A DNA stretch of 46,718 nt, taken from the IMG/VR virus record IMGVR_UViG_3300014489_000003, positions 1 through 46,718 of that record; one strand, 5' to 3'. Of this stretch, positions 10,194-46,477 are shown piece after piece. Origin of the DNA: a virus. The notes under the pieces are model-generated. The model worked only from the letters and a program-made list of their open reading frames with translations, was not told the DNA's origin and searched no databases. The position numbers and the translations under genes are program-made. Numbering within the stretch: position 1 is the first letter of the stretch; each line of letters starts with the position of its first letter.

Positions 10194-10660
10194 CACTTAC
10201 CTTCTTTCTCAGCTGCCAGAGCCAAGTCAATCTGCTCCATCGTTCCTATGCCTTCCATGTCCTGCTCTAAGTCCTGATCCATAAACAGCCGCGATCTACG
10301 CTTGGCCTTGGAAGCCTTTACCGATTCCAGTGGAGCCGCGTCAACCTTAGCGAACCCGAGCGCGCGTACTGTCTGCCCAATCAATGATCGCAGAGTGAAC
10401 TTGGTGCCTCCGCGATTATCGTCATCCTCAATCCTCAACACCGATACATCTCTGCTGCCTGCCTTACCAGCCGTGTACATCTGAATCGCATCCGTCGGAA
10501 CAGGCTCACCAGCCAGGGCGCGCTCACACAACGCGCAGCGAACATTAATCAATCTGGTGAATGAATCGCTGATGTACTGTCTGCAATCGGAGCAGACAAT
10601 TCGATACGATCCGTCTTGGTTGCGGTTTCCTTGCCTGCTGCTTCCTTCTGTAAGCGCCAC
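10193..10660 (-). CDS. Zinc-finger-containing hypothetical protein, 155 aa (GTG start)
   Basis: GTG at 10660 follows GGGAGG at good spacing. Residues 23-45 contain CSDC and CALC, a zinc knuckle pair. The C-terminal part is charged with a Lys/Arg patch (KASKAKRRSR). Its first 112 nt overlap the end of the preceding GT-like gene in another frame, an unusually long overlap for this genome. Function unknown. Confidence 0.6.
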   Translation of the reverse strand: MALTEGSSRQGNRNQDGSYRIVCSDCRQYISDSFTRLINVRCALCERALAGEPVPTDAIQMYTAGKAGSRDVSVLRIEDDDNRGGTKFTLRSLIGQTVRALGFAKVDAAPLESVKASKAKRRSRLFMDQDLEQDMEGIGTMEQIDLALAAEKEGK

Positions 10661-11331
10661 GCCAGTACCTCCCTAATACTATGCAAAGCATCCGGCAGTC
10701 TTTCAAGATGATCCGCTTCCACAACTCTGTAAAGAGGATTTTTGAATTTCGAGAGCCAGTTGACTGCTCGATTCTTCTCGAGGATCTCAACCACTGGCAG
10801 ACCCATCGCCGCAGCCGCATAAGTCTGCCAAGACTGATACCCAACTACAATACCGTCCGGCACAGGATCGCCGACACCTAAATCATCCCACCTAAACTGA
10901 ATCTCCGATACTCTTAAGTCCAAATCTCCTGCTACCCATAAACACTCTGGGCGCGTACACGATACCTGACGAATCTTAGGATATGGCGGGGCTTCAACCC
11001 CAGCGATGGCTGCACAGATTTGTGACGCATGTTTTTCAGAATTATAGAAGCTGAGTAGCTTCTCATCTGTCAACTCGATCACCGAATCGGGGAATCCAAT
11101 CTGTTCCCTGTCCTGATTCAACTCGATACCGAGACGCCGAAACAAATCCCAACACTCGTCTGCCACTTCCACCTGATAACGGAACTTATACGTCGGCATG
11201 ATAGGCGTAACACAGTTGGCCTCCATCTTGATCCTATAACTATTCACATAAACCTGATTAGCCGCCATCGCAGGGAACTGTAGCTCCCGATCCTTCGGCA
11301 TCACGAATAAGATATCTTCAGTCGCTGTCAT
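10549..11331 (-). CDS. Putative GT-B-fold (GT9-like) glycosyltransferase
   Basis: 260 aa. The C-terminal section, beginning VGYQSWQTYAAAAMGLPVVEI, follows the GT9 pattern where a conserved loop is followed by A-x-A-x-G-x-P. The N-terminal half is alpha/beta but has no diagnostic motif. The last 35 residues are low-complexity and overlap the downstream gene. The start at 11331 is chosen from an ATGA overlap. The GT9 assignment is tentative; a nucleotide-sugar-binding relative without catalysis is possible. Confidence 0.45.
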   Translation of the reverse strand: MTATEDILFVMPKDRELQFPAMAANQVYVNSYRIKMEANCVTPIMPTYKFRYQVEVADECWDLFRRLGIELNQDREQIGFPDSVIELTDEKLLSFYNSEKHASQICAAIAGVEAPPYPKIRQVSCTRPECLWVAGDLDLRVSEIQFRWDDLGVGDPVPDGIVVGYQSWQTYAAAAMGLPVVEILEKNRAVNWLSKFKNPLYRVVEADHLERLPDALHSIREVLAWRLQKEAAGKETATKTDRIELSAPIADSTSAIHSPD

Positions 11332-11543
11332 ATCAATTCCGATTCTCTTCTGCTGCATTCAGGACATGCAAAGTCCGCCGATATTTTACCCTGAAAGAAT
11401 GGCCTACATTCAACCGACATACAACCGCAGATGTCGCACTGTCGTGGAGTCTTCGTAGCGCTTAGTCTGAGCGCGATTCTCAAGAACCATATGCCCCCGA
11501 GAGTAAGCACGACCAAAATCCAGTTGTAAATCCAATGCATCAT
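11328..11543 (-). CDS. Membrane protein with cytoplasmic zinc knuckle, 71 aa
   Basis: One N-terminal transmembrane helix (WILVVLTLGGIWFLRIAL), then CDICGC and CPEC about 28 residues apart. The same TM-plus-zinc architecture is seen in 11792-12112 two genes upstream. Start ATG 11543 behind GGGG; ATG 11540 is equally possible. Confidence 0.65.
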   Translation of the reverse strand: MMHWIYNWILVVLTLGGIWFLRIALRLSATKTPRQCDICGCMSVECRPFFQGKISADFACPECSRRESELI

Positions 11544-11547
11544 AGAA

Positions 11548-11817
11548 CTACCCCATCATCGAAGCTGCGTACCGAACCACACACATCACACAGCGATATC
11601 GCTGCACATACCCAGGTATAAAATCCTCATCCGTACAGGGAGCACCACAATCAGCGCAGACCGCAGCTGGAGCCTCTGCTGGATGCAACGTCGCATCCAA
11701 CTCATCGTCAACCACAGCCAGTACCTCAGCGTCCGACATGCCAGCCGTCACCCGAGCAGATACTCTGTCCAGATAAGCAGACGCAGCGTCATTACTGTAA
11801 TTTTGGGACTGCTCCAC
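11548..11817 (-). CDS. Zinc-ribbon protein, 89 aa (GTG start)
   Basis: CADCGAPC and CVMC at the C-terminus form a zinc ribbon; the first 50 residues are helical and acidic. GTG 11817 is preferred because GAGGAGGCG lies at ideal spacing; the ATG at 11832 sits too near its own Shine-Dalgarno. It overlaps the upstream gene by 26 nt. Confidence 0.6.
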   Translation of the reverse strand: MEQSQNYSNDAASAYLDRVSARVTAGMSDAEVLAVVDDELDATLHPAEAPAAVCADCGAPCTDEDFIPGYVQRYRCVMCVVRYAASMMG

Positions 11818-12112
11818 GTTTCGCCTCCTCATCCTTCAGACGTTGGTCTGCCAACTTGAATGCAGCATCATAACAAAATGGGCACTGCTGAACTGGATGC
11901 CGGCCGTCGCCCAGATCGATCAAGATTAAAGACTTCACCGGAAACGTCCCATGCCGATCACAGGTAAAGAAATCAGTCTTCGGTGTATTGCGAGTCTCGA
12001 TCCATGCCAGAAGCCCCGCAAACGCAATATACACGACAACACAGCCGGCCACCCCGAGCAACGTTAGGTAGCTGGTGTAAACGATCCTGTGCGATGCCAA
12101 CCATTCCACCAT
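11792..12112 (-). CDS. Membrane protein with zinc knuckle, 106 aa
   Basis: An N-terminal transmembrane segment (YLTLLGVAGCVVVYIAFAGL) is followed by CDRHG and CPFC motifs and a charged C-terminal helix. GGAGGGATC precedes the ATG. Similar in layout to 11328-11543, possibly an ancient duplicate. Function unknown. Confidence 0.65.
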   Translation of the reverse strand: MVEWLASHRIVYTSYLTLLGVAGCVVVYIAFAGLLAWIETRNTPKTDFFTCDRHGTFPVKSLILIDLGDGRHPVQQCPFCYDAAFKLADQRLKDEEAKRGAVPKLQ

Positions 12113-12121
12113 GATCCCTCC

Positions 12122-13195
12122 TCAGCCCCGTACAGTCTCGAATGCTTCACGCCAGCCAGGATGTACCCGGTTGAATGTGTAATGTTTCGTCAACACATTA
12201 TATGCCCTTTGCCCTAAGTCGTTACGCCGACCTTCATCATGAATCAACTCGCGCAACTTAGGCTTCCAATTCCCCTGACCCGCGCAGAGCAGCCAGCGCA
12301 ACTCAGGATCATGACTTGTAAAGTCATCGTAAGGCTTCACCCAACTGGCGAGACAAGGAATCTTGCAGTAAGCAGATTCATACATTTTGATCCCAGACTT
12401 GGCACTATTAAACGGATGGTCTGTCACTGGAGCCAATCCTATATGCCATCCCCAGACCGGCATTCTGGCAGAGAACTCCGCAACCGGAACCCACGGCTTG
12501 TGGTAGAAGTTGCGTATCCTCTTCATGTCCTCGCTGGGATCGCATCCACGGAACTCGATCAATGCGTCAGGCCTCTCATCCGATACCGCATTCAACGCAT
12601 CGTAAGTCATCGCCAGATCGCCAATATGCGAACTTGATCCGCTCCAACCGATGATAAACCTACTACTCTTCCGCGGCGTCGCATACAGCCGCTGATCCAT
12701 CCAATTCTCAGCGACCACCACAGGCACATCACGTCCTGTAAAACGATTCCTCAACGGCTTGACGTTGGCCCTGATCCGCTTCTCCAACGTCTTCGTAGAT
12801 ACGGTCACCAGATCCGTCAACTGAATACAAGCAACAAATCCTTCCCGCATCTGAGTCAGCGGAACATGAGCAGGATTCGACTCCGGCAGATCCCACACAT
12901 CGTCATCCAAGTCGTAGATTATCTTCGACCCGAGCGACCTGCATGTGTTGATGAAGTTGTACTGAGCCTGAGAACAACACCGCTGCACCACGATGATATC
13001 GCAGCCGGCGATCATGTCGAAGTTAGGCTGGTTGGCAAAGCAGTAGAAGCTACTCCCCGGAATGTTTTGATGGGGATAATACATTCTCCACAGAGCACAT
13101 GCGTCAAAGCCACGCGCCAAGGTAGCAGATACTATTTTGCCTGTTGAGCACGGATCATCCCTCCTTCCGCTACCCGCAGAAGACGCTGTTTCCAA
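12122..13195 (-). CDS. Glycosyltransferase, GT4-like (GT-B fold)
   Basis: About 340 aa of family sequence. Typical features are DIIVVQR for the second N-terminal strand, IIYDLDDDVWDLPESNP (a run seen in many phage and capsular GT4-like enzymes), a linker with FIIGWSGSSSHIGD at the start of the C-terminal Rossmann domain, and SGIKMYESAYCKIPCLAS, the E-x7-E-like donor-binding region. The start is uncertain: the only in-frame initiation codon before the domain is a TTG at 13195 with AGGTAAG upstream, giving a 63-nt overlap with the preceding small gene. Probable role is transfer of sugar to virion or envelope glycan. Confidence 0.75.
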   Translation of the reverse strand: METASSAGSGRRDDPCSTGKIVSATLARGFDACALWRMYYPHQNIPGSSFYCFANQPNFDMIAGCDIIVVQRCCSQAQYNFINTCRSLGSKIIYDLDDDVWDLPESNPAHVPLTQMREGFVACIQLTDLVTVSTKTLEKRIRANVKPLRNRFTGRDVPVVVAENWMDQRLYATPRKSSRFIIGWSGSSSHIGDLAMTYDALNAVSDERPDALIEFRGCDPSEDMKRIRNFYHKPWVPVAEFSARMPVWGWHIGLAPVTDHPFNSAKSGIKMYESAYCKIPCLASWVKPYDDFTSHDPELRWLLCAGQGNWKPKLRELIHDEGRRNDLGQRAYNVLTKHYTFNRVHPGWREAFETVRG

Positions 13196-13266
13196 GTCTT
13201 ACCTGAGAGTAACCTATTAATAGTCGAAACATCTACCTTGAACTCGTTCTCGATTATCTCGTTCAT
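13132..13266 (-). CDS. Small helix-turn-helix peptide, 44 aa
   Basis: The sequence around NEFKVDVSTINRLLSGKTWK has the form of the DNA-recognition helix appended to many phage HNH and intron-encoded endonucleases. ATG 13266 overlaps the stop of the adjacent HNH gene (ATGA) with GGAG upstream, so this may be a detached DNA-binding module of that endonuclease. Confidence 0.55.
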   Translation of the reverse strand: MNEIIENEFKVDVSTINRLLSGKTWKQRLLRVAEGGMIRAQQAK

Positions 13267-13736
13267 CGTGGGCTCCATTTGCCGCCGATCACCAGTCTGC
13301 GCCATACATCCTCGAGCGACGAAGCCGACAATCCTTTGCGTAAAATCCTGACCAGCCAAGTAAACTCGTCCGCTGTCAGGATTCCTTTTCTCCAATTACA
13401 CTTTTGGCAACAGAACTTTATGTTGTCCAACCCCCAGCCGCCGCTCGTCGCCACAGCAGTAGCATGATCCGGCGTGATCGTCTTGACCGTCAGCTTGCAT
13501 CCGCAATAGCAGCACGTCCCCTTCAACGCATGCTCCATCACCTGACGCAACTCCTCGAGCGTATAAGACAGCTTCGCCTTATCCGACCGAAAGAACTCAC
13601 GCATGCGAGTCGTCTGACCGTTATAGATGCTCAACGTCCGACGCATGAACGCAGACTGCTTCTGCTTGCCGCGCATCTTCGCACGCTCCTCCACCAGGAG
13701 CTTGTTGATGTCCTTCTTGGTCATCTTTACCGGCAT
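13263..13736 (-). CDS. HNH endonuclease
   Basis: 157 aa. The core has CCYCGC, then TPDHATAVATSGGWGLDNI and CCQKCNWRKG: two zinc-binding CxxC pairs around the H-N-H residues, as in the HNH/5-methylcytosine-type nucleases. The N-terminal 70 residues are basic and probably bind DNA. ATG 13736 is chosen because GGAG lies 7 nt before it; it overlaps the previous gene by 10 nt. Probably a free-standing homing endonuclease. The next gene supplies a separate HTH peptide. Confidence 0.82.
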   Translation of the reverse strand: MPVKMTKKDINKLLVEERAKMRGKQKQSAFMRRTLSIYNGQTTRMREFFRSDKAKLSYTLEELRQVMEHALKGTCCYCGCKLTVKTITPDHATAVATSGGWGLDNIKFCCQKCNWRKGILTADEFTWLVRILRKGLSASSLEDVWRRLVIGGKWSPR

Positions 13737-13906
13737 GTCATATCTCCAGGATCGCGCCTCTCGATCCAAGCATACCTCGCGTTGGACGTATTCGGAATCA
13801 TGCCCGTCTCGGATAACAGTTCCGATGCAATCCTAATCTTCAGATCGTCCGATCCCATACGCGCATCCCGTAACAACGTCAAAAGATTTAGAACAGACTC
13901 CGTCAT
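13727..13906 (-). CDS. Small hypothetical protein, 59 aa
   Basis: The N-terminus (MTESVLNLLTLLRDARM) is helical, the rest charged. ATG 13906 has GGAGGTG upstream and overlaps the previous stop (ATGA). Lies between two HNH genes and may be a hitch-hiker. No family recognised. Confidence 0.55.
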   Translation of the reverse strand: MTESVLNLLTLLRDARMGSDDLKIRIASELLSETGMIPNTSNARYAWIERRDPGDMTCR

Positions 13907-14451
13907 ACACTCACCTCCGTAGACCCAGGAAACTCTTCTTCCCACGCCTGTCGTTCTTTCTCTTCTCTCAGCTTCAGAAACATACGCTGCTTGTTGCTGA
14001 CCGCTCCGTGTGCTGCATGACCGAGCGCCTCGAGGTTAGAACCACAGTCGCCCGTGTCCAGCTTATCCCCATTGATGTGATGTGCATCCTCATCTTTGCG
14101 TAGCTTCCTGCCAAGCTTAGCCTCGAGCACCAGCGTGGCAACCCGTACATCGCGGTGTGGGCCAGCCTTGACGACCAGATAGCCCTTCCTATCAATGCAG
14201 GTACCGCCAGCGAACTTATACGTCGTCAATCCATCGCAGAAGTTTGTAATGATACGAAGGATGACTGCGTCGAGTAGAGCTGTAGGCTCAGCCTGAAACA
14301 TATACAGGCAGAAGTGTGAGCGCCAGCGTATTCTCCCCAGCAACGCACCAGAATCTGCTATCGCAGTCCAGGCTGGCTTAGCACTAGCCGCGGCCAGCGG
14401 ATCCTGATCGAACGTCACGCTTTGGATGCGACGATAGTGGGTGCTACTCAT
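13903..14451 (-). CDS. HNH endonuclease (HNH_3-like)
   Basis: 182 aa. The C-terminal half has GYLVVKAGPHRDVRVATLVL then DEDAHHINGDKLDTG and SNLEALGHAAH, i.e. the beta-beta-alpha metal finger with HH...N...H typical of phage free-standing homing endonucleases that recognise DNA through a 5' beta strand. The N-terminal 60 residues are not recognised and may be a separate DNA-binding part. ATGA overlap at 14451. Confidence 0.75.
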   Translation of the reverse strand: MSSTHYRRIQSVTFDQDPLAAASAKPAWTAIADSGALLGRIRWRSHFCLYMFQAEPTALLDAVILRIITNFCDGLTTYKFAGGTCIDRKGYLVVKAGPHRDVRVATLVLEAKLGRKLRKDEDAHHINGDKLDTGDCGSNLEALGHAAHGAVSNKQRMFLKLREEKERQAWEEEFPGSTEVSV

Positions 14452-34236: not shown

Positions 34237-37041
34237 TTATTGTAGATATAAGCGACTTCGTCCTTTTCGCTTTCTGACAGTGTATACCGTCTCACCTGAT
34301 AACAAACCCTCAATATATGCACTGTGCGTAACCAGCAAAATGGTCTCGAAGCGATCCTTCAACTTCAATATCCCCCGAGCGAACTGCTTGCATCCCTCCT
34401 GATCTAGTCCAGTACCAGGTTCATCCATCACCAGAAGATTCGTCTTCGGGGCTGCTTCCCTGAGAGAGAATGCCACAATGATGCCGGCCATAGCAGCTTC
34501 GCCGACCGACTGACCATCTACCGTAGCAGAGCCTACAGGATTCACCACATCCACAACGAACTCGCCGTCCTCCACTCTGAACGTCACCTTCAGGTTTCCG
34601 TCCGTGAAAATATCGCTGTACTCCTCCGCTGCTTTATTCAACAACGGGCAGAGCGCGATGGACAGGTACAACGGAATGCCCGAGCGATGGAATGCCTTCT
34701 TCGAATACTCCATCATCTCGCGCTCAATGCCCAGCCCCTGACGTGCGCCCAAAGCGGCCCTATGATACCGCTGCCTCAATCTCAACTGAGATGTCTTATA
34801 AGCCTTAGCCACAGCCGTCCGCTTATTCCGCTCATCCTCCTGAGCCGCTGCTGTTTCCAAGTCAGCAATGCGATCCTTACTAGCGTCGATTTTCTGCTCT
34901 GAGACTGATACCTTGCGCTGATAACTATCCAGCTTCAAAGCCCCGTCAGACTTTTTCTTTTCTAATGTCTCCGCTGCCTTGGTATGACGCGCTAACTCCT
35001 GCTGTGCCGAAACCGATTCTTTATCCGCCTCTTTTGCCGCCTTACCGCCGACACCCGCTGAATCCTGTCCACAGGTCGGACACTTCTCAGAAGCAATCAA
35101 CTTCTCAGCCCGAGCCAGTCGATCCTGCCATACATGCAATTTCTTCCTCGCTGCATCCATCGCCATATGTTCTGTCTGAAAATCATGTACCAGATCGTCA
35201 ACAGTAGCCTGTAATTCTTTATAGAACTCCGCCACACCAGCCAAAGCCGCATGCTCCTCCACCAGCCGCGCCAGCTCAATCTGCTCTGCCTTCAACTTCG
35301 CAGCCCACTGTGAATCCGTCTCGATATTCAAATCCGCCAGATCAATCTCGAGGCTATCAATCTCTGAAGTCAACGTGTCGATCTGCGCAGTCGTCTCTGC
35401 GACTGCTGCGTCACACTTCTTGATATCCTCGTTGACCAGCTTCTGCGCCAAATCGAAACGCTCAAGATTCTGGAAGCGCGCGATGAGATCCATGCGGCCG
35501 CTGGGAGTGCCGAATACAAATCCGTTCGCCACAGCCTGATCGATGTACACCGCGTTCATCAGCGTCTGCATATCGTAACCGAGCACCTGCTCAATCAAAC
35601 CCTGTGTCTCTTTCTTGCCTGTACCGCGGATACCCGATGACACATCGTTACCGTCGATCAACAGACGAATCGAGTGCGGCCTGCGCCCGCGTAGAATCTC
35701 GATCTTCCTATTCGCCTCATCGCGCACAATCAATCGTCCTGTGGCTGGATCTGTGTTGCCCTCATAAGCCCAGGCATCACTCTTCTGTCCCTTGCCATTC
35801 TGTCCGAATGCGATGATCGGAATCAGCGACAGCACGTTAGTCTTACCAGTGCCGTTACTGCGCCCCGGCCAGTCCTCATTGATACCGCGAATCAACACCA
35901 GCCCGAGCTTCGAGAGCTTCAACTTGATGGTCTCGATATTCAACACGTTAGTCGCTTCCACACCAGTGAATCGAATCGCAGAGCCGGCCGCTCCTTCCTT
36001 CAAGCCGTCCAACTTCGACACCATGTACGACACAGCCTGCCCAGCCTCGAACCTCGACTCCTCAGGAATCGTCGCCGCCACATACTGCTCAACCTTTTCC
36101 TGATCGCTGGAACCACGCAGGATGACCTCGGTGACATTCTCATCGATGACATCCGCCACCGTGTGAATCCTGACATTTCCGTACTTCTCCCGGATGCGAT
36201 CCTCCTCCGAGTGCATCTGGTCAGAGATTTTCTTGGTGGTCACCTGAACCTTAGAACGAACGTAGGCTCCGTCTTCCGGCGTGATATTATTCTTCTCGAG
36301 GTAATCGACGTTGTACCAATGGGGAATCTTCGTCCTGATCTGGTTGACCTCGCCATTCTCCAAGTCGAGTAAAACATGCCCCTTCGGGGAATCCGCTTCG
36401 CCCCAATCCTGACAGAACGGCGACCCGATATACCAGGCCGCATAGTCTCCGATCCGCTGATGCCTGTGAATATGCCCGCTGAGAACAGCGTCGAACTCAT
36501 CGAAATGGAGATCCTCTCCTGTCGGCCCTTTCGTAAGCCGCCCAGAGGCATCCATGACAGATCCGCCGATTTCGGCATGCAGTACCAATACCTTAGGCCC
36601 AATATGCCCTTTAGTCTTCGCTAGGAGAGCCGACGTCGCATTTATAAGCGTTTCTTGCCCCGTAGCCGCCCCAAAGTAGGGAACGAACGCCACAGCCGCG
36701 CCAGCGATTATCTTGATCTTGGGCTCCGTGACCACCTCAGCCCCAGCCGCTGCCAACACGTCAAGCCAGTTCTTCGACTCCGCCGACTGGCTGATTCTGT
36801 CATGGTTGCCGAGCAGGATGATAAACCGGAACCCGGCAGACCTAACTCGCCGCACCATCCTGACCGCCAGCTTTACAGTCTCCACATCTACAGGTGAATA
36901 CGCATCCTTCACATCCCCAGCGTGAATAACAGCTTCTGGCTGGTACTTAACAGCGGCAGCGATCAATTCATCTAAAGCCATCTCGCATTCTTGTAGATTC
37001 CCAAAAGCAATCTGCCAGTCTGAAGTAAAAAGCAAGCGCAT
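34237..37041 (-). CDS. Single-chain Mre11-Rad50 (SbcD-SbcC) fusion nuclease-ATPase
   Basis: 934 aa. Residues 1-350 are an Mre11/SbcD metallophosphatase: TSDWQ with D8, GDVKD with D43, GNHD at 78-81, H155 in LHAEI, and GHIH at 189-192. Motif I has Gln10 where His is usual. Residues 360-934 are Rad50/SbcC: Walker [10 protein letters not shown] at 393-401, coiled coil with the zinc hook CPTC at 654-657, an ABC signature-like [12 protein letters not shown] at 842-853 and Walker [13 protein letters not shown] at 869-880. It processes DNA ends in recombination and replication, like T4 gp46/gp47 in one chain. ATG 37041 has GGAGG and overlaps as TGATG. Confidence 0.92.
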
Positions 37042-37616
37042 CACACTGACCTCCGCGACTTACCTCCAGGGCCACGCTGCCGTCCCTTTGCAACCATGTC
37101 GTCTACGTTGTCCTGATTCGAACCTGTAAAAAGATGATCAGGATTGCCACACACCATCACGTCGCACTTATGCAATACATGCAGACTGTGCGGTAGCTCG
37201 CCATGCGTCAGATACCACGCGATCCTATGAACAGACGATTCTGGAATAAACGGATTCGGTACAACCCCATAACCTTTACCGAATGTCGTCCCATGCCAAA
37301 TCCAACATCGCGTCTTCAATCCTGTATATTTCGCCGGGAACGGCCCGTGTGTATCCAAGTTGCTCCAAAACCTCTTCGTCCATACCGCAGTACGCAGACG
37401 CTTACGCGCTAGAAATCGCTTACGCGGATCTGCTGCCGCAAGTCCTCGATACTTACCATGAGCTAACGAAGACACATACGAGACAGCTAACCCAAACCTA
37501 GCTGCTATGTCTTTGAGAGGCGCGCCGTCCTCATACAAGGCCAACAGAAGTAAAGCCTCGTTATCGGTCAGCTTCGCATTACCATTCGATTCACCTGGGT
37601 GACTTAAAGGATTCAT
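37041..37616 (-). CDS. HNH endonuclease inserted upstream of the mre11-rad50 gene
   Basis: 191 aa. The N-terminal 60 residues form a helix-turn-helix-like segment (LKDIAARFGLAVSYVSSLAH). The C-terminal HNH_3-type core contains SVHRIAWYLTHGELPHSLHV, HKCDVMVCGNPDHLF and GSNQDNVDDMVAKGR, seen in free-standing homing endonucleases of the I-HmuI-like and T4 MobE-like kind. ATG 37616 overlaps the truncated mre11 fragment (ATGA). Its position splits an mre11 5' end from the full gene, as expected of a mobile endonuclease. Confidence 0.85.
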   Translation of the reverse strand: MNPLSHPGESNGNAKLTDNEALLLLALYEDGAPLKDIAARFGLAVSYVSSLAHGKYRGLAAADPRKRFLARKRLRTAVWTKRFWSNLDTHGPFPAKYTGLKTRCWIWHGTTFGKGYGVVPNPFIPESSVHRIAWYLTHGELPHSLHVLHKCDVMVCGNPDHLFTGSNQDNVDDMVAKGRQRGPGGKSRRSV

Positions 37617-37786
37617 ATACAAACCATACCATATCTGACGTAGGCATCCTTCATGTCGCCGCCGTGGATTATCGCATCCGGCTTATACTTCGCAGCTGCT
37701 GCCAGCAACTCCTCGAGCGACTGCTCACACTCCTGCAGGTTGCTGAAGTCGATCTGCCAGTCCGATGTGAATAGGAACTTACTCAT
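37613..37786 (-). pseudogene. Stranded 5' fragment of an mre11/sbcD-like gene, 57 aa
   Basis: ATG 37786. Residues 1-49 read [20 protein letters not shown] ... IIHGGDMKDAY, aligning along their whole length with residues 1-48 of the intact gene, including the unusual Gln after DW. After the GDMKDAY motif the frame runs into the HNH gene and stops. DNA identity between copies is low, so it is an old or divergent copy. It may still be translated (ATGA coupling on both sides). Confidence 0.85.
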
Positions 37787-37890
37787 CGATGCTTACTCTC
37801 ATACCAGCTCCGAGAGAGCCATCCGCACACAGCGAATCCAAAACAAAAACCGGATAACCACATAACCGCTAAACGCCACCACATCTCCAT
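37783..37890 (-). CDS. Membrane microprotein, 35 aa
   Basis: MEMWWRLAVMWLSGFCFGFA and onward forms one Trp/Phe-rich transmembrane helix with a short basic tail. The ATG at 37890 follows GTGAGG and the stop overlaps the next ATG. Its existence is supported by spacing. No family recognised. Confidence 0.55.
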   Translation of the reverse strand: MEMWWRLAVMWLSGFCFGFAVCGWLSRSWYESKHR

Positions 37891-37898
37891 GCAAGTCC

Positions 37899-38933
37899 TC
37901 ACATAGAATATTTTGCAAACAGCTTGCACAACGCGTACACACTGGAACAGATAGCTGCGAACACCAGAGCATTCTCCGCATCCGCAGTCATTGACATCAA
38001 TGATATCGCTTTTGCTACTGCGTCACCGCGTGGCCCCATATCCGGAGTCTCCAGCAGCTGCGAATTCAAATAGTTCAGCAGCAACACGCGTAGATACCGA
38101 GCGTCTTCCTTACTGACATTCTGTAGATACCGAGCCGCCTCTCCCCACAACCCGCGCGTGATTGCCCGAGACAAAGCCATGATGTCAATCGTGGCTGCAC
38201 CACTGACCATCGCAGCATCTGCTGGTTCGCAACCTGCGCAATACTTCTCCACCGCCTGAGCAATCAACCGCGGCGAACGCACCATATTATCCGCCAGAGC
38301 CTCTGCCAACCGATCCGTTGGTAGATCGCTGCCAACCTTCGACAGCAACCGCTCTACCAGCTTCTCAACATCAACCATCTCCAGATCGCGGAACTCGTAT
38401 GAGATACAACGCGATCGGAACGCATCTGAAAGTTTGCCGGGTTCTGTCGTGGTAAAGATGAACACTGTCGTCGGCGGTGTGTCCTCGAGCATATCCAGAA
38501 ACTGACTAAGACAACCAGGCCCAGCCCGCTGAATCTCGTTGATAATGTAAACGCGATAAATGCCGTCGCCCATCACACCCGAGTAAGCTCCTGACAACGC
38601 TCCTGCCATGTCCTCCTTCTTAGACAACACAGCAGCTGAAATTTCATTGATCGCAAAGCCAGATGAAGTCTGCCTACACACCTTACAAGGTCTGCCAAAC
38701 GTCTTCTGATGCTCGCACTGATAAGACAGTGCCAGGATTCTCGCCGTGGTCGTCTTGCCTGTCCCCTTGCTGCCCGCGAACAGCCAAGCCTTAGGGAACC
38801 TGCCCGACTTGAAATGCCCGCGGATAGCAGCGACCAGCTTGTCCTGCCCGAGCAAACCATCCAACGTCTGTGGCCGTGCCGACAGCGACAGCTGCTGCTT
38901 GACTACATTATCAACCTGTTCGCTCTCAGCCAT
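37899..38933 (-). CDS. DNA polymerase clamp-loader ATPase (DnaX/RFC-like)
   Basis: 344 aa. AAA+ ATPase: Walker A GSKGTGKT at 54-61, an inserted Cys cluster C73...C83-x2-C86 as in the DnaX zinc site (one ligand, perhaps His75, is not Cys), Walker B VYIINEIQRA at 128-137 where Asp is replaced by Asn, sensor-1 TTTEP at 161-165, and SRC (174-176) arginine finger. It loads a sliding clamp during replication. The helical C-terminus (collar) is present. ATG 38933 has GAGG and overlaps the upstream gene by 31 nt. Its P-loop DNA is repeated at 8340-8364. Confidence 0.88.
   Translation of the reverse strand: MAESEQVDNVVKQQLSLSARPQTLDGLLGQDKLVAAIRGHFKSGRFPKAWLFAGSKGTGKTTTARILALSYQCEHQKTFGRPCKVCRQTSSGFAINEISAAVLSKKEDMAGALSGAYSGVMGDGIYRVYIINEIQRAGPGCLSQFLDMLEDTPPTTVFIFTTTEPGKLSDAFRSRCISYEFRDLEMVDVEKLVERLLSKVGSDLPTDRLAEALADNMVRSPRLIAQAVEKYCAGCEPADAAMVSGAATIDIMALSRAITRGLWGEAARYLQNVSKEDARYLRVLLLNYLNSQLLETPDMGPRGDAVAKAISLMSMTADAENALVFAAICSSVYALCKLFAKYSM
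38730..38754. repeat. 25-bp direct repeat, copy in clamp-loader P-loop
   Basis: Identical to 8340-8364 (same strand), starting TGCCAGGATTCTCGCC. Here it encodes the TTTARILA part after Walker A. Confidence 0.9.
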
Positions 38934-43190: not shown

Positions 43191-43215
43191 CACTATAGAG
43201 AATTGAGCCTACGTC
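43191..43215 (-). promoter_or_regulatory. Promoter-like 25-bp box (GACGTA-N12-TATAGTG)
   Basis: Perfect in both halves. Only 5 nt separate TATAGTG from the ATG at 43185. The GACGTAG includes the stop of the NADAR gene. Confidence 0.65.
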
Positions 43216-43625
43216 GTACGCAACTGGTCGCGTACCTTCATGAGCAGCAAGCCGAGATGATTCTCGCCTACACCGTCACAGACCCCCCAGTAAGTGTCTC
43301 GCCAGTCGTTACCTTCGACCAGCTGCTGGTTGCCCGTCGCCATGAGCTTCTGACACATAGGCTTGGCATAAAACTTAGACACCAGCAACTGCTCCATGAT
43401 GCCGAGCTTTACCTGTTCCCAGTCAGCGCGCAACTTCAACCTGCGACCGGCATGCTTAGCCTGAGCCGATGTCATCTCGACGAAATCGATCCTCAGATCA
43501 ACATCTGTGGTCTTCGCCGCTTGGAATGCACACTCCACCGAAGGATAAATAATCCCCTCGAACACGACTGCCCACTTATAGAAATTGGACAGGAACCTAT
43601 AATCACCAGTGAAACTGTCTATCAT
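43209..43625 (-). CDS. NADAR-domain (YbiA-like) N-glycosidase
   Basis: 138 aa, full-length NADAR. It contains GDYRFLSNFYKWAVVF and IIYPSVECAFQAAKT (YbiA-type LSNF and the conserved Glu-x3-Gln-x2-K), and ends in DTYWGVCDGVGENHLGLLLM. NADAR proteins cleave N-glycosidic bonds of ADP-ribose or riboflavin intermediates; some remove ADP-ribose from guanine bases in DNA, reversing DarT-type toxins. In a phage it could counter DNA ADP-ribosylation defence. Overlaps the DNA polymerase stop by ATGA, so it is co-translated. Confidence 0.85.
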   Translation of the reverse strand: MIDSFTGDYRFLSNFYKWAVVFEGIIYPSVECAFQAAKTTDVDLRIDFVEMTSAQAKHAGRRLKLRADWEQVKLGIMEQLLVSKFYAKPMCQKLMATGNQQLVEGNDWRDTYWGVCDGVGENHLGLLLMKVRDQLRTT

Positions 43626-46477
43626 TCCGGCACCTCTGCCAACTGCTTCTTCAAGTCAAGAATCTGCCCCTTTGTCTTCTCGTACCAGCTCAACAGGAAA
43701 CCCCCGACGGTGAACTTATCATCCTTCAACTCAACCTTGCTCCCCAACCGCAAACCAGCCTCAGCTTCGACCACAATCGGCACCGTCCAATTGATATGCG
43801 GAAAGTCCTTCCTCACCGTCAGCAAAGATTCCTGCTCCATCAAATACCGGGCCTTACGATAAGCCTCCTGCAAATCCAGGACGTTGACCATGTAATACAA
43901 AGCATCATGCACGTCCATCGATGGAGTGCCCAGCACCGCATACTTCTCAGGCTGCCGCTTATGATTGACCAGACCGCACTCAAGCAACTGGTGAGCCGTG
44001 CCCTGCACAGGCGTGTTAACTGACTGAGAGCGCCACGATACCTGCTTACCGCCGACCGCTTCTGCAATCACACTCGCTTCATCGTCACCGAAGTCATCAT
44101 CGAATGTTGCATGCCGCTCTTCGACATTCAACGTCCGATGCAGCCCAAACAATGTCTCCACATAACCGTGCTCCTGAGCAAACTCCTGCTGCTTGTCCAT
44201 GTAGCGCTTCACACCCTTATAGCGCGCGAAGTAACGATCATACGCATCCGAGATCATCTCCTCAGTGCCGTCGAACGTAGGATCCATAGCCTTAATGAAC
44301 TGGTACAGATTATGCTTGGCAATCAAGAACACGATGCCGAAGTGAATATTCTTGGTCAGCGTACGCGTCTTCTTATCGTGCCTGATTTTCTCTGGATCCC
44401 ATCCAGTCATGGTCACGCCGACCGTAGTATGGATATCTGCACTGGCGCAATCCTTGATGAGATTCTTGTCGCCCGAGAGCAGAGCCAGCACACGAATCTC
44501 GATCTGCCCGTAATCGAGAATCAGGAACGTCTTCAGGTCAGGCATGTACTTTCTAATCCACGCCTCGATCCGCTGTTCCCAATACTCCTTCTTCGAAGTC
44601 TTGAGTATCTTGGTGATCGCGTTGAATACCTGCCGCCAACGCTTATCCGACACACACATATTCTGCAACCGCGGATCGCCATGCAGATTCTGCAGATTGA
44701 TCCCGCCATCATCACCGCCACTGCTCGAGAGCCGGCCCGTAGATGTACCCGTCGCATTCCACTTAGTCTTCAGCCGCCCGCCGAACTTCAACGCACACTC
44801 AAGCTGACCGTCGATGTAGGTAGATTTTGCCTTGCTCAACTTGCGCCAGTCGACCACAGCCCCAGGAAACGGATGCTCTCTCGAAAGCATCAGCATCGTC
44901 TTCTTCTGGGTATTCGGCTTACCCTTGTGCATCGGATACACAAGCCCCAGCCGGTTATAGACCACATCGTAAACCTGCTGCGGACTGCCAGGATTGAACT
45001 CTCGGTCGTCGATCATATCACGCAGCTTGACCAGCGCCTTCTGCTCCAAGTATGGATATAGCCTGTCCACCTGAGCATGCTGCCAAGGATCGAACCACGG
45101 CCCATTGCTCTCCATCGCCGTCAGCACGAAACTAAGATCGATGTAGAGCTGGATCAAAGCCTGCGGAATATTCTTCTTGGTATCGATCTCGATCCGCTTG
45201 GTCAAGTCTGCATCCGCGCCGTTATATAAACGCAGCGTCTCAGGCTTCAACCGACTCAGATGATAGTGACCCTTATCCTTCAACCACTTCAACTTCGCCG
45301 ACAGCGCTCCGTTCAACACCGCCGATGGAACCTTGGTACCTTCCGGCAACGCCTCCATCAAATCAGACACCACGATGGTCTTGTAGCCAGAAAACTCCTG
45401 GTAACGCCGCTCTGCCAAAGCCTCAAGTCCGTACTTCTTAGCGTCCGGAGAGCCGAGATAATCAGCGAAGTAAGTATCCCACTCAAATCCCTTCACAAAC
45501 ACATTCAGCTTCTCGAACGCCAACGCATCCGAACAACCATAATGCATCACCTTACGAACAGATCGATTCTCCAACAGCACCCTGATCCAGTTGCGTATGC
45601 AATCCGCGTCCGCCACCGACTGCTCGATATAAGGATTATCGCAAACGAAAATGAAACTCAGTCCAGGCTTGGGACTAAAACCGACAGCGAAGATCACCAT
45701 CTCGCCGTCGATTATGTCGTACTCAATATCGACTGAGATCCGCCGCCCAGTCTTCGCATACTTATAAATAAGCATGCCAGCCTTCGATGCCTGTGTCCCT
45801 GTCAACACCAGCCGATAATCCTGCTCTCGCAGGTATACAAAATCATCTGATGTCGGTACCTCTTCATTCTTCCAATCCGCCGCCAACTGATGCAACGTAG
45901 ACCTAAAAGACTGTAGGCGCGCGCCAGCACCATAGCCGCCGATGAAAAACGCAGGATGGTCAGCAAGATAGATTTTCGCCTGATGCTTCTCACTCCAGAA
46001 TATCTTCTGCGTCGGTACCGACCGCGTCTGCAAGAAAGCCTTCTGTGCCACCTGACCGAGCACAAGGATATGCTTGGCCTGTACCGCAACCAATTCAGTC
46101 TCAGTGTGAACAGAGCAGCAATGAACCTCGAGCGCCGTCGGATTCCGCATCTTCAAGAATGAATTATACGAACCCTCTGTCAAAGTCGCTGGGAAACATC
46201 TGACAGCCTGCGTGATATCGCAATCAGTACGCCGGATACCTACCGCCTTCAATTCCGTCCATAGGAACTGTCCAGACTTTCCTACCAGCGGCCGCTGGTC
46301 TTCATTCTCTTCAGGGCCAGGGCTCTGTGCCACAATCAAAATATCGTGGCCATCGATCTCGCCCATGATCTTGTGAACGCCCTTCACCTTGTTCAACGAG
46401 CATGCAACACATCCACGCTCTCCGAGCTTGGTGTTTTTCTTGGTCGTCCTAACCTGCACCAGCTCGTCGAACGCCAT
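43622..46477 (-). CDS. Uracil-DNA glycosylase - 3'-5' exonuclease - DNA polymerase I fusion
   Basis: 951 aa. Residues 1-205: family-4-like UDG with four Fe-S cysteines (C23, C26, C94, C120/C121), uracil-binding SPGPEENEDQRPLVG at 52-66 and HPAFF at 174-178. Residues 245-430: DEDD exonuclease (D250 and E252 in VDIEYD, D317, D422/D424). Residues 440-951: family A polymerase with motif A D655 (LDYGQIEIR), motif B R705...K709...F713 and motif C VHDAL (D858). Odd points: E. coli Y766 and G767 positions are F717 and L718, and the Glu after the motif C Asp is Ala859. GAGGGG precedes the ATG. Confidence 0.93.
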   Translation of the reverse strand: MAFDELVQVRTTKKNTKLGERGCVACSLNKVKGVHKIMGEIDGHDILIVAQSPGPEENEDQRPLVGKSGQFLWTELKAVGIRRTDCDITQAVRCFPATLTEGSYNSFLKMRNPTALEVHCCSVHTETELVAVQAKHILVLGQVAQKAFLQTRSVPTQKIFWSEKHQAKIYLADHPAFFIGGYGAGARLQSFRSTLHQLAADWKNEEVPTSDDFVYLREQDYRLVLTGTQASKAGMLIYKYAKTGRRISVDIEYDIIDGEMVIFAVGFSPKPGLSFIFVCDNPYIEQSVADADCIRNWIRVLLENRSVRKVMHYGCSDALAFEKLNVFVKGFEWDTYFADYLGSPDAKKYGLEALAERRYQEFSGYKTIVVSDLMEALPEGTKVPSAVLNGALSAKLKWLKDKGHYHLSRLKPETLRLYNGADADLTKRIEIDTKKNIPQALIQLYIDLSFVLTAMESNGPWFDPWQHAQVDRLYPYLEQKALVKLRDMIDDREFNPGSPQQVYDVVYNRLGLVYPMHKGKPNTQKKTMLMLSREHPFPGAVVDWRKLSKAKSTYIDGQLECALKFGGRLKTKWNATGTSTGRLSSSGGDDGGINLQNLHGDPRLQNMCVSDKRWRQVFNAITKILKTSKKEYWEQRIEAWIRKYMPDLKTFLILDYGQIEIRVLALLSGDKNLIKDCASADIHTTVGVTMTGWDPEKIRHDKKTRTLTKNIHFGIVFLIAKHNLYQFIKAMDPTFDGTEEMISDAYDRYFARYKGVKRYMDKQQEFAQEHGYVETLFGLHRTLNVEERHATFDDDFGDDEASVIAEAVGGKQVSWRSQSVNTPVQGTAHQLLECGLVNHKRQPEKYAVLGTPSMDVHDALYYMVNVLDLQEAYRKARYLMEQESLLTVRKDFPHINWTVPIVVEAEAGLRLGSKVELKDDKFTVGGFLLSWYEKTKGQILDLKKQLAEVPE

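Follow-up and report, generated by a model that had tools for sequence, protein, structure and literature searches.

Why should a phage carry the beginning of one gene twice, once as a fragment in front of an HNH endonuclease gene and again behind it, as the start of the complete gene? The question is raised by the mre11 locus of a virus of bacteria represented by one contig of 46,718 nt (IMGVR_UViG_3300014489_000003), the whole of which was analysed and is called the window here. The gene order at mre11 runs along the minus strand, and the features are listed in that direction (L009 and similar handles denote relatives described below).

37899..38933, minus strand: clamp-loader-like gene, conserved to the left of mre11 in every relative
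37783..37890, minus strand: small ORF of 35 aa between the clamp loader and the stub, overlapping the stub start in ATGA
37613..37786, minus strand: stranded mre11 5' stub ORF, 57 codons, recognised by its sequence match to the mre11 5' end
37640-37786, minus strand: mre11-homologous part of the stub, 49 codons, followed by 8 unrelated codons at 37613-37639
37763..37786, minus strand: first 8 stub codons, a putative resident-type start, 20/24 nt as in the mre11 gene of L009
37041..37616, minus strand: HNH_3 endonuclease gene, 191 aa (Pfam)
34237..37041, minus strand: full-length Mre11-Rad50 (SbcD-SbcC) fusion, 934 aa (Pfam and PHROGs)
37024..37041, minus strand: start of the full gene (MRLLFT), unlike the stub/L009 start and of ancestral-type length (as in L013, L130, L026 and L015)
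36630..37023, minus strand: candidate exchange (co-conversion) tract, codons 8 to ~138 in L009 numbering, 99.2% identical to L009

A sequence-only reading had described a stub that runs into an HNH gene, after which mre11 starts afresh, and we recovered this layout in its ORFs, frames and coordinates. From the 35-aa ORF onward, for which no counterpart was found in the relatives, the ORFs meet in ATGA or TGATG overlaps: the HNH start (ATG at 37616) sits within the stop of the stub, forming ATGA, and the HNH gene ends in a TGATG across the mre11 ATG at 37041, with a GTG one codon earlier. The full gene matches SbcC- and SbcD-like PHROGs, and a Metallophos (Pfam) match is present in both the stub and the full gene. 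Elsewhere in the window, a DNA polymerase A gene (43622-46477) has an N-terminal uracil-DNA-glycosylase-family domain, both above the Pfam cut-off, and is adjoined by a gene for a NADAR-domain protein (43209-43625).

The HNH gene and the clamp loader/mre11 junction

The product of the HNH gene matches HNH_3 (PF13392) at 36 bits, against a curated cut-off of 24.8 (E 5e-9), with the domain at 37104-37232 and the His-Asn-His residues H149, N158 and H161 invariant among the relatives aligned. An N-terminal sigma70-r4-like helix-turn-helix is encoded at 37458-37577, below the Pfam cut-off. AlphaFold gave at best a weak model (mean pLDDT 59.5), in which a helix-turn-helix can be seen, as can a strand-strand-helix at the HNH motif, and a PDB sequence search returned nothing useful. 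The window protein has its helix-turn-helix first and its HNH domain second, while in most relatives aligned the helix-turn-helix-like part is C-terminal. A homing endonuclease gene (HEG) of a group I intron was ruled out: Rfam gave no match up to E 1 over 36500-38300, and the HNH stop abuts the mre11 start. No Shine-Dalgarno sequence is visible by eye at the HNH start, which has the ATGA overlap with the stub; the sole role of the stub is probably to lead ribosomes onto the HNH start codon through this overlap.

We found relatives of the locus in IMG/VR. The mre11 protein of L009 (106,772 bases) is 87% identical to that of the window, compared with 60% for L013, 47% for L026 and ~30% for L015 and L014; L130 was picked up through its clamp loader. 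A scan of genome contigs found no relative, and phage records held only distant relatives of mre11, at most ~25% identical among the matches listed. Uninterrupted mre11 without HNH, which the sequence-only reading had proposed to seek, is present in four phages: in L013, L014 and L015 mre11 directly follows the clamp loader with no HEG, and in L130 the two genes are separated by two small non-HEG ORFs. The window HNH gene is thus free-standing, a nuclease gene between conserved genes that is absent at the same place in relatives. Directly before mre11, L009 has an AP2-HNH gene and L026 an HNH_3 gene different from that of the window. Taken together, the HEG-free phages and the different HEGs of the window, L009 and L026 show that HEGs come and go at this junction, in three lineages. 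Two copies of the mre11 start without an HNH gene, a layout that would have spoken against the earlier proposal, were found in none of the relatives. The L026 record (G005, 117 kb) holds ~10 HNH_3-like genes, 26-49% identical to the one before its mre11.

The two 5' ends and the tract shared with L009

Aligned with the N-terminus of the downstream gene, the stub agrees at 70% over 47 aa, with E 1e-13 when tested locally and 1.6e-19 when the whole record was searched, and its homology runs to ...KDAY, 49 codons in, before the unrelated codons begin. The 48 shared residues claimed earlier therefore need a small correction, in that 49 stub codons belong to mre11 and 47 residues align after differing starts. 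Over codons 9-49 identity between the two 5' ends is 67.5% for nucleotides and 71% for amino acids, and their longest exact match is 11 nt. Such divergence excludes a recent tandem duplication, in agreement with the sequence-only reading.

Which of the two 5' ends is the resident one? The beginning of the stub is that of L009, the two having in common ATG AGT nnn TTy CTA TTC ACA. The first 8 codons of L009 agree with the full-gene start at 12/21 nt, and the stub start agrees with the full gene, L013, L130 and L026 at 9-14/21 nt. Compared with the start of the stub and L009, which looks derived, that of the full gene and of the four other relatives examined is shorter by one codon. Because the stub has its start in common with L009, the stub looks resident. 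The other-type start, that of the full gene, lies flush with the HNH gene.

Behind its start, L009 changes allegiance. The window and L009 have a mean identity of ~81% in 390-nt steps genome-wide, and from codon 8 to about codon 138 the full gene differs from L009 at 3 of 394 nt (99.2% identity), falling to 87% (13% differ) just past this tract. A tract model gains 41.5 in log-likelihood and places the left edge at codon 8. Synonymous codons are identical to L009 at 123/126 sites within the tract and at 123/169 in codons 138-330 (the next 193 codons), which argues for recent exchange and not protein constraint. By this sequence evidence, we consider the tract, a co-conversion tract in the gene adjacent to the HNH gene, to be a recent conversion tract that begins right at the HNH/mre11 junction. 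L009, with a stub-type start followed by the tract, is a mosaic. The ~800 codons beyond codon 138 show the ordinary divergence of the lineage. Thus, the proposal that the HNH gene had homed in with a foreign allele finds support in an exchange tract reaching from the HNH/mre11 junction, but not for a full-length allele, since signs of exchange stop at about codon 138, after ~137 codons or ~0.4 kb. L009 has the tract but not the window HNH gene, and the linkage of HNH gene and tract rests on one genome.

Only one other region is as identical between the window and L009; it lies within 10663-13125 of the window. A second tract there, at 10841-12338, is mostly 98-100% identical to L009 (genome-wide mean 81%) and lies near two HNH genes of the window (13263-13769 and 13903-14451). 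In L009, an HNH-like gene, judged by eye, lies at one flank (35918-36715), and at the other flank a HEG remnant abuts the second tract. At 39200-39304 of L009 (L142), a glycosyltransferase-like gene ends in frame with a 68-nt remnant of the AP2-HNH gene that stands before the L009 mre11, matching the 3' end of that gene at 90% identity, and the homolog in the window (10549-11358) has a different C-terminus. We read this L009 tail as a HEG scar that appears to have remade the end of the protein. L141, another assembly, shows no difference from the L009 record over 6 kb at this second region.

Proposed origin of the arrangement

Our preferred reading, to which we give a probability of roughly 0.6, is that a free-standing HNH HEG spread into this phage by intronless homing with co-conversion. 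In the inferred donor phage, the HNH gene would have stood directly before that phage's own, sequence-divergent mre11. The resident mre11 would have been broken near codon 49, a putative cut by this HNH enzyme or by another HEG, and repair on the donor template would have brought in the HNH gene together with roughly 137 codons from the beginning of the donor mre11. On the right, homology within mre11 would have allowed resolution near codon 138; on the left, a non-homologous join would have left the first 49 resident codons in front as a stub. A break at about codon 49, a homologous right end at about 138 and a non-homologous left join would give exactly the observed order. The supposed break point falls inside the tract received by L009. 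With mre11 kept whole by the imported 5' end, the insertion should be near-neutral. The simplest reading of the two starts, which we favour to the same degree, would have the stub as the resident type and the HNH gene and foreign mre11 5' end arriving together; L009 would then, most simply, have acquired only the tract, converted through homology on either side.

A different reading concerns the resident origin of the stub. The earlier proposal of a resident start left behind agrees with codons 1-8, which are as in L009, and fits poorly with codons 9-49, which are unexpectedly near L013 and L130 and rich in GC3. Over these codons the stub is 78% identical to L013 and 76% to L130, where 61-64% is expected for the lineage, and L013 and L130 are 75% identical to each other, about the stub's closeness to each; an identity of 0.78 to L013 is reached by 5.7% of windows within mre11 and by 1.6% genome-wide. 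GC3 is 0.80 in the stub and 0.76 in L013/L130. In a tree of codons 9-49 the stub groups with these two phages, but not significantly so (AU p 0.15, with an alignment of just 123 nt). Such closeness and high GC3 would suit a foreign stub: a phage like L013 or L130 may have carried a broken mre11 5' end with the HNH gene within it or immediately after it, and stub and HNH gene may have landed together before an intact resident mre11, the L009-shared tract being a separate exchange within the lineage. The tract is as far from L013/L130 as the rest of the gene (identity 0.62-0.68 and 0.61-0.63), as a native sequence would be. Against this, stub codons 1-8 side with L009 and not with L013 (10/21) or L130 (9/21), the L013 phage has no close relative of the window HNH (33-37%), and codons 9-49 of the full gene are themselves unusual, with a GC3 of 0.44 that is second lowest among 42 genes at that place, so that both 5' ends are odd in composition. 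We regard a foreign stub as the less likely reading.

Homing might also be dispensed with altogether. Phages recombine freely, the left junction shows no visible homology, and co-infecting phages could have recombined a fragment bearing the HNH gene, as a passenger, and an mre11 5' end. This seems improbable to us, given that HEGs recur at exactly the mre11 junction in three lineages and that both near-identical tracts of the window/L009 pair adjoin HEGs. We think it very improbable that the assembly joined a strain with stub-type mre11 to a strain with the HNH gene and the other allele. The locus does come from a single contig, but between 37500-37900 and the part of the window downstream of it exact repeats do not exceed 15 nt, which leaves no obvious k-mer bridge; ATGA and TGATG overlaps join the ORFs at the two junctions, and the mosaic allele of L009 supports exchange independently.

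Relation to known homing systems

Intronless homing, our preferred reading, has precedents in phages. Free-standing phage HEGs cut a HEG-less neighbour gene at a distance, and repair of the cut copies them in, co-converting the flanks (PMC2988022). The T-even examples resemble the window in having a HEG between conserved DNA-metabolism genes and missing in relatives, a co-conversion tract in the neighbour gene, and overlapping start and stop codons; in the cases compared, however, the resident gene start is not reported as stranded in a stub, whereas in the window the stub is present and cleavage is putative (PMC2988022). The mobE gene in nrdA of Aeh1 is likewise an HNH HEG behind the 5' part of a DNA-metabolism gene, but the downstream gene of the window is complete with its own start, and the 5' part is superfluous (PMC2988022). 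HEG turnover at conserved places and HEG-flanked exchange between phages are also known (Barth et al. 2023, PMC10448857). As in the HEG-islands described there, HEGs in the window edge near-identical DNA between diverged phages and different HEG classes occupy the same place, so that near-identical cargo bounded by HEGs, with swaps of HEG class, recurs here in small format; unlike in those islands, the tract is only 0.4 kb long, lies inside one gene and has a gene fragment marking one edge.

The stub itself is most closely matched by mobile ORFs of fungal mitochondria, which bring a foreign 3' gene end and strand the native one (PMC3630166). Allomyces atp6 and Glomus atp6, atp9, cox2 and nad3 are like the window in that the HEG is accompanied by a foreign version of one end of the gene, the resident end is stranded beyond the HEG and the gene is kept whole, and the two ends of Glomus atp6 are 63.5% identical, compared with 67.5% in the window (PMC3630166). 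The window shares with these hybrid genes a HEG between two copies of a gene end, the foreign one being identified by inference; it departs from them in that they involve a 3' end, a LAGLIDADG or GIY-YIG enzyme and mitochondria, and the window a 5' end, an HNH enzyme and a phage (PMC3630166). An upstream copy of the downstream gene's start was found at none of 86 other HNH_3 loci and none of 20 further HEG loci (in four phages); the few matches in this test of ~106 loci were HNH tails, paralogues or noise, and not comparable cases. We found no comparable phage case in the open-access literature. What is new here is a 5' end stranded in a phage, with an HNH enzyme, in a layout whose closest published counterpart is the fungal-mitochondrial one.

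A bolder view, which we hold only tentatively and think rather unlikely, is that the HNH gene and the replacement mre11 5' end travel together as a single unit, which would cut its target gene and supply a new, cut-resistant first part; if true, it would be the equivalent, for 5' ends in phages, of the fungal mobile ORFs that make hybrid genes. At about mre11 codon 49 the scar may preserve the point at which homing in a phage broke the target gene. To our knowledge, such break points are normally visible only in laboratory crosses. On our reading, homing genes would reshape the coding sequence of a DNA-repair protein, and they would leave behind gene fragments that annotators may mistake for real small genes.
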